64,000 bases of DNA, taken from the NCBI GenBank assembly GCA_039944855.1, contig JBDUXZ010000005.1, positions 62,001-126,000 of the forward strand, written 5' to 3'. This DNA comes from Rhodothermales bacterium. Lineage in GTDB: Bacteria > Bacteroidota > Rhodothermia > Rhodothermales > JANQRZ01. Position 1 is the stretch's first letter; every line of letters begins with the position of its first letter. Under the pieces are notes generated by a model. It saw nothing but the letters and a program-made list of their open reading frames with translations, did no database searches and was not told where the DNA came from. This document shows, one piece after another, positions 27,399-32,257 of this stretch. The translations under genes were made by a program, and so were the position numbers.

Positions 27399-29000
27399 TC
27401 AGCGCATCGGCTCGAGGACGAGCACGTCTTCCGCGTTCGTCAAGCGGCGGATCGGGTAGTCGTCGCCCGGCTCAACCGGCACGAGCCCCCAATTCACCAA
27501 CCCGTCGTCGGAGCGGGGTTCGAGGAGGGTGAAGGCCATCCGCCCGAGCGGCTGATCGATCGGGACGACGAGCGTGCCCGCTGCCATCGGTTGCGTAACC
27601 TCTCCGTAACGACCGAACGCCTCGCGTTCGTGCCGAGCCTGAAACGGTCGCTCGGCGACGTGGACGCTGTCGATGCGAAAGACCTCCTGCCCGATGGGGA
27701 TACTCTGCAACCCCGCACCCGCAGCGTAATAGCGGATGCCGTGCGCGTCGAGCCGGTTAACCACGTCGGCGAGCGAATCGGGGACGAGATACGCGAGCGG
27801 CGCCGTCTCGAAGTCCGAGCCGGCGAACCGGCCGTACACTGTCATCTCCGTCGGCGTCACCGCCTCGGTTCGGCGAAACATCGGCTCGCCGGTGTGCGGG
27901 TTCGGCTCCTCGACGACCTCGCCGAGTAGGATCGTCTCGGGCTCGGGCGAGGCCTGCCAGCCCCCCGCCGCCCGGAGCGCGAGCCGCTGTCCGACGACGG
28001 ACTCGGCATCCGCTTGCTGAACCGTCCGGCGGATCTCCCCCGCGTGGTCGTGCGCCCAGTCCAGCGTCTCCGTCACAAACCCGAGTGTAGCGCGGACGCG
28101 GTCCTCGAACGTGGCGTAGCTGTACGCCTCGCTGAGGATGCCGACGCGGTTCCGCAGCCCGGCGTAGTTCGTACCGAAGCGCGGACGCGGGTCGAACGTG
28201 GCCCATCCGCGCGGCTGGCCCCACTCGGGCTTGTCGTTGCCGTAGTACGTGAGGCACCCGCCGTACCGCTCTTTATATGCCTCCGTTACGGCCGGCAGCC
28301 ACGCGCCGCGCAGGAGCGCGTCCACGGCGGCGGGCGTGTTGGGGTGGAGCGGCGGCGCGTACGTGAGGTCGTAGGCGTGGACCGTCCCGTTCGTCGTGTG
28401 CAGGTCGATGACGACGTGCGGGTCGTACGTGTCCATGAGCGCGACGAGGGCGCGAGACTCCGGCGCGTCGAGCTTGACGAAGTCCCGGTTGAGGTCGAGG
28501 TCTTGCGCGTTCGACCGCTGCCCCATGCCGTCGACCGGGCCGTGCTGGTAGGGGCGATTGCCGGGGTCGACGCGCTCGTTGCCGTCAGCGTTGTAGATCG
28601 GGGCGACGAGGAGGACGAGCGAGTCGGCCCATGCAGCGTACTTGCCGGCCGCGAGTTCGCGCAGGAGTATGAGCGCGGCCTCTTTACCCGCGACTTCGCC
28701 CGCGTGGATGTTGGCGAAGACGAGCACCCGCAGCTTCCCGGCCGCGCGCACGGCCTCGGCCGAAGCGCCGTCCGCGCCCCACACCATGAGCGGGAGGGGA
28801 CGGCCTTCGACCGTCGTCCCGAACGTCGTGCCGTGGAACCCTGGCATCGTACCGATCGCTTCGACGAAGGCCATCACGTCGGCATACGTCGAAGTCGCGC
28901 GGAAGTCGGTCTGCTCGGCGCGGGTGCGGAGCGTGTCGGCGGGCTGGGCCGCGAGCGGCGAGACGCCGAATAGGAGAGCGAAGAGGACGGCGCGAGGCAT
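27399..29000 (-). CDS. M14-family zinc carboxypeptidase (exported)
   Basis: A 533-residue exported protein with a short signal peptide (AVLFALLFGVSPLAAQ). The peptidase M14 domain holds the zinc ligands His and Glu in VFANIHAGEVAGKE and the third ligand in VVIDLHTTNG. RSNAQDLDLNRDFVKLDAPE is the substrate-carboxylate region, and the catalytic glutamate is probably in GILSEAYSYATFEDR. The C-terminal 180 residues are beta-rich and form an accessory domain. It should hydrolyse peptides or peptide-like amides outside the cytoplasm. A TAGCTTG promoter element lies 28 bases before the ATG at 29000; the ORF continues upstream without protein character. Confidence 0.88.
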   Translation of the reverse strand: MPRAVLFALLFGVSPLAAQPADTLRTRAEQTDFRATSTYADVMAFVEAIGTMPGFHGTTFGTTVEGRPLPLMVWGADGASAEAVRAAGKLRVLVFANIHAGEVAGKEAALILLRELAAGKYAAWADSLVLLVAPIYNADGNERVDPGNRPYQHGPVDGMGQRSNAQDLDLNRDFVKLDAPESRALVALMDTYDPHVVIDLHTTNGTVHAYDLTYAPPLHPNTPAAVDALLRGAWLPAVTEAYKERYGGCLTYYGNDKPEWGQPRGWATFDPRPRFGTNYAGLRNRVGILSEAYSYATFEDRVRATLGFVTETLDWAHDHAGEIRRTVQQADAESVVGQRLALRAAGGWQASPEPETILLGEVVEEPNPHTGEPMFRRTEAVTPTEMTVYGRFAGSDFETAPLAYLVPDSLADVVNRLDAHGIRYYAAGAGLQSIPIGQEVFRIDSVHVAERPFQARHEREAFGRYGEVTQPMAAGTLVVPIDQPLGRMAFTLLEPRSDDGLVNWGLVPVEPGDDYPIRRLTNAEDVLVLEPMR

Positions 29001-29027
29001 CGGCGGGAGAAAGGCGGGATCGGCGGA

Positions 29028-29034
29028 CAAGCTA
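29028..29034 (-). promoter_or_regulatory. Predicted -7 element of the M14 peptidase gene
   Basis: TAGCTTG on the reverse strand, 28 bases before the start at 29000. Confidence 0.4.
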
Positions 29035-29124
29035 CGCCGCTTGTGGGAGATCATGCGATCCGCAAGAACCCACCCCTCCCCTCGCCGTACCACTCGCCCT
29101 TTCGCTTTACCCGGCCCGCTTCTC

Positions 29125-30195
29125 ATGCCCTTCATTGCCGCCACCGCGACCGGATTCCCGGCGCACTACTACTCGCAGGACGTCATCAGCGGGGACCTTC
29201 AGATGCTGTGGTCGGAGTACGGCATCAACACCGGTCGCGTCGCGAAGCTGCACGAGAACACGACCGTCGGCGGGCGCTACATCGCCGTGCCGAAGGAGGA
29301 GTATTACGAGCTGCGCGGGTGGGAGGAGCCGAACGAGATCTACGCCCGCGTGGCCGTCGAGCTGGGACAGGAGGTGCTGGAGAAGGTGTTCGCCGAGGCC
29401 GGGCTCGACGCCTCCGATGTCGGCCTCTTCATTTTCGCCTCCACGACGGGCATCGCGATCCCGACGATCGACGCGCGGCTGATGAACCGGCTGCCGTTCG
29501 CGCCCGACACGAAGCGGCTCCCGCTCTTCGGGCTCGGCTGCGTCGCCGGCACCGCCGGCACCGCGCGCCTCGCCGACTACCTCGCCGGGCATCCGACCGA
29601 GGCCGCCGTGCTCCTCACCGAGGAGTTCTGCTCGCTGACGATCCAAAAGCACGACATCTCGATCGCCAACCTCATCGCGTGCGGCCTCTTCGGCGACGCG
29701 GCCGGGGCCGTGCTGATGGTCGGCGACGAGCACCCGCTCGCGCAGCAGGCCGGCCACACGATGCCCGAGATCGTCGCTACCCGCTCCGTCTTCTTCCCCG
29801 ACTCCGAGCACTTCATGGGCTGGGACATCAAAGAGACCGGGATGCAGATCGTCCTCTCGGCCGACGTGCCCGAGGCCTCGCGGACCGACCTCAGCGCCCG
29901 CATCGAGGCGTTCCTCGACGAGCACGGGATCGGCGTCGCCGACATCGGCCGGTGGGTCTGCCACCCCGGCGGGCCGAAGGTGATCGAGGCGCTCGAAGAA
30001 GGGCTCGGGCTCAACGGGACGACGCTCCAGCGGAGCCGCGACGTCCTCCGCGAGGTCGGCAACGTCTCGTCCGTCTCCGTCCTCCTCATCCTCGACGCCG
30101 TGCTGCGCGACGACCCGCCGCCGCCCGGCACGTATGGGCTGATGCTCGCGATGGGCCCCGGTTTCGTCGCCGAACTCGTGCTGCTCCGGTGGTGA
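29125..30195 (+). CDS. Type III polyketide synthase
   Basis: A 356-residue chalcone/stilbene-synthase-type enzyme with the full catalytic triad: Cys139 (FGLGCVAGTAG), His280 (VCHPGGPKVIEAL) and Asn313 (GNVSSVSVL). The N-terminal thiolase half includes FIFASTTGIAIPTIDARLMN, the C-terminal half ends TYGLMLAMGPGFVAELVLLRW. It condenses an acyl-CoA starter with malonyl-CoA units to alkylpyrones, resorcinols or related products. The next gene, overlapping or 5 bases away, is an ICMT-family methyltransferase, an arrangement known from Bacillus bpsA-bpsB, where the product is an alkylpyrone methyl ether. The ATG at 29125 matches the family N-terminus. Confidence 0.93.
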   Translation: MPFIAATATGFPAHYYSQDVISGDLQMLWSEYGINTGRVAKLHENTTVGGRYIAVPKEEYYELRGWEEPNEIYARVAVELGQEVLEKVFAEAGLDASDVGLFIFASTTGIAIPTIDARLMNRLPFAPDTKRLPLFGLGCVAGTAGTARLADYLAGHPTEAAVLLTEEFCSLTIQKHDISIANLIACGLFGDAAGAVLMVGDEHPLAQQAGHTMPEIVATRSVFFPDSEHFMGWDIKETGMQIVLSADVPEASRTDLSARIEAFLDEHGIGVADIGRWVCHPGGPKVIEALEEGLGLNGTTLQRSRDVLREVGNVSSVSVLLILDAVLRDDPPPPGTYGLMLAMGPGFVAELVLLRW

Positions 30196-30200
30196 CCGCG

Positions 30201-30764
30201 ATGACGACGCAGTTCCTCTTCCTCGGCATCGTCCTCGCCGTCGCCGCGCAACGCATGCTCGAACTCCGGCTGAGCGCGCGCAACGCGGCGGCGATCCGGG
30301 CAAAGGGCGGCTACGAAGTCGGTGCCGGGCACATGGGCGCGATGCGGCTCCTCCACACGGCGTGGTTCGTCGCGATGCTCGCCGAGGTCTTCCTGCTCGA
30401 CCGGCCATTCGTCCCGTGGCTCGCCGTGCTCGCGTTCGCCGGGCTTCTCGCCGGGCAGTTGCTTCGCTACGCGGCGATCCGTACGCTCGGGCCGCGCTGG
30501 ACGGCGTCGATCATGATCCTCCCCGGCGCCCCGCCCGTCGCGAGCGGGCTCTACCGCCGCATCCGGCACCCGAACTACGTCGGCGTGATCCTCGAGATTG
30601 CGTTCGTTCCCTTCCTCCATACGGCGTGGCTGACGGCGCTCGCCTTCACCGTGCTCAACGGGCTCCTGCTCCGCGTGCGGATTAGGACGGAGGAAGCCGC
30701 GCTCCGCGAGGCCAACGACTACGACGCCGCGCTCGGCGAGCGGCCCCGCTTTATCCCCAGCTAA
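30201..30764 (+). CDS. Isoprenylcysteine carboxyl methyltransferase-family protein (alkylpyrone methyltransferase-like)
   Basis: A 187-residue membrane protein with four to five spans and the ICMT/PEMT core: LRYAAIRTLGPRWTASIMIL, then GLYRRIRHPNYVGVILEIAF, the S-adenosylmethionine-binding R-H-P-x-Y motif, and the C-terminal RIRTEEAALREANDYDAALG, which has the conserved E-E and Y. A GTG at 30192 overlaps the stop of the polyketide synthase (GTGA) and could be an alternative start. Coupling to the type III synthase suggests it methylates the polyketide product, as BpsB does; that is inference from context. Its stop overlaps the convergent NSS transporter stop by 2 to 3 bases. Confidence 0.85.
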   Translation: MTTQFLFLGIVLAVAAQRMLELRLSARNAAAIRAKGGYEVGAGHMGAMRLLHTAWFVAMLAEVFLLDRPFVPWLAVLAFAGLLAGQLLRYAAIRTLGPRWTASIMILPGAPPVASGLYRRIRHPNYVGVILEIAFVPFLHTAWLTALAFTVLNGLLLRVRIRTEEAALREANDYDAALGERPRFIPS

Positions 30765-32257
30765 ACCCGGTCCCGCAGTGTGCGCCGCACCATCCACGTG
30801 TTGAGCGCGAAGAAAAGCCCGAGCGCGAGGCCCCACTGTACGAGGCACGTCATCACGCTGTACGGCTCGAAGGGATCGTACCACGCTTCCGTGAAGTCCG
30901 CCGTCGTCGCGAGGCTGAGCCACCACACGAGGAGGACGACGGCTTCGAGCGGGATGAGGTAGCGGATCATCAGGTCCCACGTCGGGTGCAGCCGCCAATC
31001 CGACGGCGTCGCGAGGTCGTGACGGAGGCGGGACGCGCCGTAGCGGATGACGGCGAAGGCAACGAACGCGCCGGAGATCATCAGCGCCACGCCCCACACG
31101 AAGTCCTGGTTGGCGAAGAACGTGAGGTTCAGCGCGCTCGGCACGCCGAGCACGAAGCCGACGCCTGCGACGGTCGCCACGGCGCGAGGGCGCGGGAGCC
31201 CGAAGTCGACGAGCGCCCGCGAGGCGAGCTCGATCATCGAGATCAGCGACGAAAGCGCGGCGAACGAGAGCGCGAGGAAGAACAGCACCGCGAGCACTTT
31301 GCCGAACGCCATCTGCGCGAAGAGCTGCGGCATCCAGATGAACGTCAGGCCCGTCGAGGCCGGCCCGCTCGTCCGCATCACCTCCAGCATCTCCGGCCGC
31401 GACATCTCCGTGCCGAGGATGGCGAAGACGGTCCCGAAGATCATCGTCGCAGAAAGCAGCGAGACGGTGTTGTTGCCGATCCCGGTGAGGAAGGCGTTGC
31501 GGACGACGCCGTGCTCCTTCCGCATGTAGGCCGCGTACGTGAGGATCAGGCCCCAGCCCGCGCCCGTGTCCCACGCGTTCTGCGTCAGCGCCTCCAGCCA
31601 GAGCCTCGGCTCGCGGAGTTGGCTCCACTCGGGCGTGAAGAGGTACGCGAGCCCGGCCCCGGCCCCCGGCAGTGTCATCGCCCGCACGACGGCGATCACG
31701 ACGATCACGAGCAGCGTCGGGACGAGCACGCGGTTGGCCCGCTCGATGGAGCGCACACCCTGCCAGCACGCGACGGCCCCGAGCCCCATCGCCGCGGCGT
31801 GGAAGAACAGCGGCCATCCGCTCGATTGGAACGCGTCCCACGTCCCGAGCGCCGATTCTGTCGTCAGCGGCAGCCCGGCGAAGAGCGATTCCGTCGTGTA
31901 GTAAAAACACCACCCGGCCACGACGGCGTAGTAAAACATGATCGCCGTCGCCACGAATCCGACGAACGCGCCCATCCACGCGAAGCGCTCCCCGGCCAGC
32001 CTCGTGAAGGTCCCAACGACGCCGCGCCGCCCGCGCTGCCCAAGCGCGTACTCGGCGATGATGAGGGGGATGCTCCACACGAGGAGGAACACGAGCCACG
32101 CGAAGAGGAACGCGCCCGCGCCGTCGTCCCCGCCGTTCTGCGCCGCGATTCGGGGAAACCGCCAGATATTCCCCGTCCCGACCGCGATGCCGAGCACGCT
32201 CAACAGCAGCGTCCAGCGGGAGGAGAAGCGTTGCTCGGAGGCGTGGGGCATGGGCAT
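30761..32257 (-). CDS. Sodium-dependent transporter of the NSS/SNF family
   Basis: A 498-residue protein with about 12 membrane spans and the NSS signature at span 1: RWTLLLSVLGIAVGTGNIWRFPRIA, where the unwound GIAVGTGNIWRFP segment binds sodium and substrate. Further family segments are IPLIIAEYALGQRGRRG, WGLILTYAAYMRKEHGV, FLTGIGNNTVSLLSATMIFG and LSFAALSSLISMIE. Bacterial members carry amino acids or similar solutes with sodium (LeuT-like). The substrate is not predictable. The gene is followed convergently by the methyltransferase; tandem repeats lie upstream at 32266-32322. Confidence 0.92.
   Translation of the reverse strand: MPMPHASEQRFSSRWTLLLSVLGIAVGTGNIWRFPRIAAQNGGDDGAGAFLFAWLVFLLVWSIPLIIAEYALGQRGRRGVVGTFTRLAGERFAWMGAFVGFVATAIMFYYAVVAGWCFYYTTESLFAGLPLTTESALGTWDAFQSSGWPLFFHAAAMGLGAVACWQGVRSIERANRVLVPTLLVIVVIAVVRAMTLPGAGAGLAYLFTPEWSQLREPRLWLEALTQNAWDTGAGWGLILTYAAYMRKEHGVVRNAFLTGIGNNTVSLLSATMIFGTVFAILGTEMSRPEMLEVMRTSGPASTGLTFIWMPQLFAQMAFGKVLAVLFFLALSFAALSSLISMIELASRALVDFGLPRPRAVATVAGVGFVLGVPSALNLTFFANQDFVWGVALMISGAFVAFAVIRYGASRLRHDLATPSDWRLHPTWDLMIRYLIPLEAVVLLVWWLSLATTADFTEAWYDPFEPYSVMTCLVQWGLALGLFFALNTWMVRRTLRDRV

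Follow-up and report, generated by a model that had tools for sequence, protein, structure and literature searches.

A type III polyketide synthase and an ICMT-family methyltransferase are paired in one family of Rhodothermales and predicted to make a methylated phenolic lipid

Main finding

We analyzed a stretch of 64,000 nucleotides (the window) from the genome of a Rhodothermales bacterium (GenBank assembly GCA_039944855.1, contig JBDUXZ010000005.1, positions 62,001 to 126,000). It contains an intact type III polyketide synthase (PKS) gene with its catalytic triad, followed by the gene of a membrane methyltransferase, and the pairing of the two is stable and co-diverging among relatives. 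We read them as an operon of two genes whose enzymes would make and methylate a phenolic lipid, similar to SrsA-SrsB but without SrsC, and predict a long-chain alkylresorcinol and its methyl ether as products; we put the probability of this reading at roughly 60%. Pairs of this kind are common and known from Streptomyces and Bacillus. Unusual is only that the family to which the window belongs carries a different PKS than most of its relatives.

Organization of the locus

The positions of the two genes and of their neighbors are given in Table 1. For the methyltransferase gene there are alternative starts: the GTG overlaps with the stop codon of the PKS gene (30193-30195), while the in-frame ATG leaves a gap of 5 bases. 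A first-pass annotation of this DNA had described the pair with the same gap or overlap, and all of its coordinates were correct. Since the flanking genes are oppositely oriented, the M14 peptidase gene divergent and the transporter gene convergent, the unit consists of two genes.

Table 1. Features of the PKS-ICMT locus (positions within the window)
Feature	Position	Strand	Remarks
Type III polyketide synthase	29125..30195	+	ATG 29125, TGA 30195; 356 aa; SrsA/PKS11/CylI branch
ICMT-family integral-membrane methyltransferase, SrsB/BpsB-like	30192 (GTG) or 30201 (ATG)..30764	+	stop codon ends at 30764
Intergenic region between divergent genes, presumed to hold the promoter of the pair	29001..29124	.	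read from sequence; bounds take the signal-peptide-like ATG 29000 as assumed start of the M14 peptidase gene
M14 zinc carboxypeptidase gene, divergent	27399..29000	-	outside the unit
Sodium:neurotransmitter-symporter-family (SNF) transporter gene, convergent	30761..32257	-	outside the unit

No sigma-70-like promoter was matched in 28900-30900, and promoter and terminator scans of the locus returned nothing useful. The GC content is even across the locus and does not indicate a foreign island. The source assembly comprises 4.6 Mb in 41 contigs, with the window on contig 5, and the PKS of the window is the only CHS-family match in the whole genome. Among the best 80 of 377 PKS relatives the nearest genome record is L002, a MAG of Rhodothermales with a 79% identical PKS; L002 and L115 denote the same place. 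Two other genomes of the window's family were examined and both retain PKS and ICMT. L115 has an ORF similar to the M14 carboxypeptidase at the corresponding position, and both L114 and L115 have one similar to the SNF transporter. In L114 (genome G146, window's family) a ParE-type toxin gene (PF05016, 62.6 bits; 1628-1930, + strand) is located between the PKS gene, which ends at 1263, and the ICMT gene, which starts at about 1937; the roughly 365 bases in front of the ParE gene could fit an antitoxin gene.

Identity of the two proteins

Both PKS domains exceed the Pfam cut-off of 27 bits (Chal_sti_synt_N 58.7 bits, Chal_sti_synt_C 80.8 bits). The catalytic triad Cys139-His280-Asn313 is in register in all 169 rows of an alignment of 165 PKS sequences and four PDB fragments, from which duplicates (L001, L112, L002), hits below 250 bits and fragments shorter than 300 aa had been left out. 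When solved structures were searched with the PKS, the top match was PKS11 of Mycobacterium tuberculosis (E 1.4e-84), followed by the cyanobacterial alkylresorcinol synthase CylI (E 1.6e-74; third row, second distinct protein). This bears out the earlier description of a triad-complete type III PKS. A KAS III/FabH identity, which would have spoken against it, was rejected on model scores: the NCBIfam KAS III models score far below their cut-offs (FabH 35.8 bits, cut-off 292.1).

The second protein had been called an ICMT-family enzyme, and PF04140 supports this with 91.1 bits against a cut-off of 24. A simple hydropathy scan revealed four to five hydrophobic stretches. Across 16 paired ICMT sequences H126, P127, N128, Y129, E135 and E167 are among the invariant residues. 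The AlphaFold2 model built from this 16-row alignment reached a mean pLDDT of 89 and a pTM of 0.81. Using this model, Foldseek returned the archaeal Ma-ICMT as best match (TM 0.67), followed by a eukaryotic ICMT; both top matches (4a2n and 5v7p) have a probability of 1.00, yet E-values of only 8.4e-3 and 3.0e-2. Sequence comparison concurs with the fold match (E 5.4e-6). Away from the pair, on contig 22 of the same genome, we noticed a second, weak ICMT-family gene (L113, 31.3 bits).

Coupling of PKS and ICMT across relatives

We considered two genes as paired when the ICMT gene starts between -60 and +150 bases from the PKS stop codon on the same strand. In 64 of the best 80 of 377 relatives, ranked by similarity to the PKS of the window, an ICMT gene follows directly downstream, a rate that holds for near relatives and not for type III PKSs in general. 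Within these 80 the pairing was found in 42/43 Actinomycetota, 8/8 Acidobacteriota, 6/6 Pseudomonadota, 4/5 Myxococcota, 2/2 Gemmatimonadota, 1/1 Rhodothermota and 1/2 unassigned loci, and in none of the 13 Planctomycetota. Planctomycetota loci with a PKS of the same branch and no adjoining ICMT gene are L016, L017, L019, L022, L027, L030 and L036, as well as L051, L063, L068, L070, L075 and L078.

Tree distances of PKS and ICMT are correlated (Mantel r 0.79 for 67 pairs, three of them from the window's family, one of which, L115, is the same place as L002). None of 999 permutations gave a value as high, the highest being 0.11. Judged from these genomes, chance adjacency is ruled out as an account of the coupling, although the reaction itself is not thereby demonstrated.

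Of the 64 relatives with the pair among the best 80 of 377, 26 have a gene for a FAD enzyme following it, and 24 of these 26 are Actinomycetota. Adjoining the pair of the window, of L115 or of L114, no SrsC-like FAD hydroxylase was found.

Phylogenetic position of the PKS

From a set of 172 rows, 73 and 44 were taken for careful tree building. One branch of the 73-row tree (99/99) unites the window's family with PKS11, CylI and the Streptomyces sequences. The Bps-like enzyme of Lysinibacillus, that of Azospirillum and 25 class-resident PKSs fall outside it. The 44-row tree, from which the longest rows had been removed, shows the same split (99/98), and the quick tree of all 172 rows shows the same grouping (support 99). 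Joining the window's family with the Lysinibacillus enzyme was rejected by an AU test on the 44-row tree (p 0.026), where each careful tree contains one Bps-like row (the 73-row tree also Azospirillum) and Bacillus subtilis BpsA is not included. CylI is the nearest branch to the window's family in two trees (99/96 in the 73-row tree, 97 in a quick tree of the phylum), a grouping that is unsure because the CylI branch is long.

SrsA, PKS10, PKS11 and CylI have been described as one alkylresorcinol clade, with the makers of aliphatic pyrones in a separate clade (PMC8086630). PKS11 has also been published as a methyl-branched alkylpyrone synthase, according to the title of the crystal structure paper cited in PMC5916927, and membership of the branch therefore does not fix the ring type. 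A Trp has been reported as essential for resorcinol formation in ArsB, and PKS10 and PKS11 are listed as alkylresorcinol formers with that Trp (PMC5916927). Trp233 of the window's PKS occupies this position. We tried it as a marker for resorcinol versus pyrone formation and rejected it, as the Trp is also present in the Lysinibacillus and Azospirillum enzymes and is replaced by Leu in CylI. A search with the Azospirillum protein for a solved ArsB or ArsC sequence found none among the matches listed.

Comparison with known systems

The closest likeness is to srsABC of Streptomyces griseus, which encodes an alkylresorcinol synthase, an ICMT-family O-methyltransferase and a hydroxylase, and in which the PKS gene is, as in the window, directly followed by the ICMT gene. 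The three genes make and modify alkylresorcinols (PMC6669644), and SrsB is described as acting in decarboxylative methylation in the title of a reference cited in PMC5916927. The layout of srsABC is seen in Streptomyces locus L040, with PKS, ICMT and FAD enzyme in a row, and the Streptomyces PKSs fall into the window's branch. The ICMTs of the window and of Streptomyces share 44% identity; an SrsC-like FAD enzyme, in contrast, is not located beside the window's pair.

The bpsA-bpsB genes of Bacillus (alkylpyrone synthase and methyltransferase) have the same layout with an ICMT partner, which we found in Lysinibacillus locus L174 (ICMT 36% identical), but their PKS belongs to a different branch. 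CylI, which acts in cylindrocyclophane formation, is part of a larger hybrid type I/type III cluster (PMC8086630), unlike the PKS of the window. In hidABC of cyanobacteria and in a planctomycetal methyltransferase-oxidoreductase-PKS operon a type III PKS for alkylresorcinols is likewise accompanied by a methyltransferase; the partners described in the relevant passages of PMC10896814 and PMC8086630 are a methyltransferase and an oxidoreductase, and an ICMT is not named there. These operons resemble the one resident in the class of the window's relatives, not the window's pair. On best reading of the sequences the pair is probably most like SrsA-SrsB, with the ring type as a prediction.

Type III PKSs in the class and the phylum

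A CHS-family match (PF02797) was present in 147 of 195 genomes of the class and in two copies only in G105, which shows one predicted type III PKS per genome to be the rule. Kin of the window's ICMT (E 1e-12 or better) were found in 3/195 class genomes, and these three belong to the window's family. In 88 loci from other genomes of the class (L082-L111, L116-L173), some of which are cut by contig ends or have a flank of only 1.5 kb, no ICMT gene adjoining the PKS gene was detected. The class-resident PKSs form a clade of their own (100/100 in the 73-row tree) that does not include the window's family. BLAST clusters of the 58 class loci with longer flanks contain a class I methyltransferase family in 25 and a FAD_binding_3 enzyme in 25. 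At the locus that was checked in detail (L167:3182-6106), type III PKS, class I methyltransferase and FAD_binding_3 enzyme are encoded in one direction. In content the class-resident unit resembles hierridin-type operons. Family f11 of the same order (L126, L139, L141, L148, L149, L150, L154) has a strongly diverged type III PKS with intact triad, scoring about 294-309 bits versus roughly 400-475 for most others; two sampled rows gave a branch length of 2.7.

At the level of the phylum, the PKS of the window has matches at E 1e-40 in 67 of 395 genomes, two of them from the window's family. We assembled a quick tree with 28 loci from the 67 matching genomes (the best 30 matches without the two of the window's family). 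We had considered whether such pairs might be missing from the entire phylum; this turned out to be wrong, as in 24 of these 28 loci an ICMT gene adjoins the PKS gene. The PKSs are of a different branch: none of the 28 fell into the window's branch and 19 grouped with the Bps-like Lysinibacillus enzyme (support 95). Thus the window's family has neither the usual PKS of the class nor the usual PKS-ICMT pair of the phylum.

Predicted product

We infer the chemistry of the PKS from its relatives, of which the characterized ones are distant from the window. The enzyme would load a long-chain fatty acyl thioester and extend it with units of malonyl-CoA, possibly methylmalonyl-CoA, to a tetraketide; aldol condensation would then close the tetraketide to give an alkylresorcylic acid or an alkylresorcinol. 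The ICMT-family enzyme would sit in the membrane, into which the lipid partitions, and methylate a ring oxygen using S-adenosylmethionine in the manner of SrsB, giving an alkylresorcinol methyl ether. As no SrsC-like hydroxylase adjoins the pair, the two genes by themselves are not expected to yield a quinone. The first-pass annotation had suggested a pyrone or resorcinol lipid, which is sensible as a prediction, for a methylated product, given a true type III PKS and its coupling to an ICMT.

It had also equated the pair with BpsA/BpsB. The two-gene layout of type III PKS and ICMT agrees with this, whereas the PKS itself lies outside the Bps-like enzymes: the phylogeny that had been proposed as a check places it in the srs/PKS11/CylI branch, apart from the enzyme of Lysinibacillus L174 and from further Bps-like enzymes of the phylum. 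A Bps-like pair would mainly form triketide alkylpyrones by lactonization, which the ICMT would convert into pyrone methyl ethers. Two genes without a hydroxylase are just the bpsAB arrangement, as in the tandem of L174. Trp233 is common to the window's PKS and the Bps-like enzyme, PKS11 has been described as a pyrone synthase, and overexpression of bpsAB yielded triketide pyrones along with small amounts of tetraketide alkylresorcinols (PMC5686519). Against these points stands the separation of the PKS in both careful trees, in the AU test and in the phylum quick tree, and we regard pyrones as the main product as unlikely, if a serious alternative to the alkylresorcinol. Far more improbable is that the second enzyme is a protein-prenylcysteine or other methyltransferase located beside the PKS by chance. 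Its nearest solved folds are indeed ICMTs and the nearest NCBIfam model is the protein-S-isoprenylcysteine O-methyltransferase equivalog, but the score of 46.4 bits is far below the cut-off of 160, and chance does not fit with an adjacency kept in 64 of the best 80 of 377 relatives from six named phyla and with the co-divergence of the two proteins. A plain protein-prenylcysteine methyltransferase was rejected on the model score and the conserved adjacency.

Origin of the pair

AU tests rejected trees in which the window's family is constrained to group with the class-resident PKSs (p 0.018 in the 73-row tree, 0.049 in the smaller tree with fewer long rows). The simplest account, which has moderate support from the sequences, is that the pair was acquired from outside the class and the resident type III PKS gene was lost. 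More specifically, we tentatively propose, at somewhat less than even odds, that one Rhodothermales family swapped the ancestral operon of PKS, soluble methyltransferase and FAD enzyme for a foreign Srs-like PKS-ICMT pair. The pair could instead be ancient, the ancestor of the class having had both PKS types and this one having been lost outside the window's family. Such a history would agree with the similar flanking genes in the family's genomes, with the uniform GC over the locus and with nearest outside relatives spread over many phyla, no donor being singled out, and ancient paralogy is compatible with the AU rejection. It requires repeated losses, however, as ICMT kin were found in three of the 195 class genomes, all from one family; the class-resident PKSs group in a single clade that excludes the window's family (100/100), and just one of 147 genomes (G105) has two PF02797 matches. 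We consider an ancient pair unlikely.

Significance

In the papers searched for type III PKSs together with Rhodothermales, Salinibacter, Rhodothermota or Bacteroidota we found no product described; a type III PKS is mentioned for a Rhodothermaceae strain (PMC4943939). Our analysis would add this lineage, for which these searches gave no product, to those with an Srs-like pair for phenolic lipids, and its prediction, an alkylresorcinol methyl ether and no quinone, can be tested. If the proposed exchange is true, two routes to methylated phenolic lipids would be interchangeable within one class, which implies a conserved role in the membrane there. That one family carries a different type III PKS offers a clear-cut natural comparison for studying the role of such lipids in these membranes.
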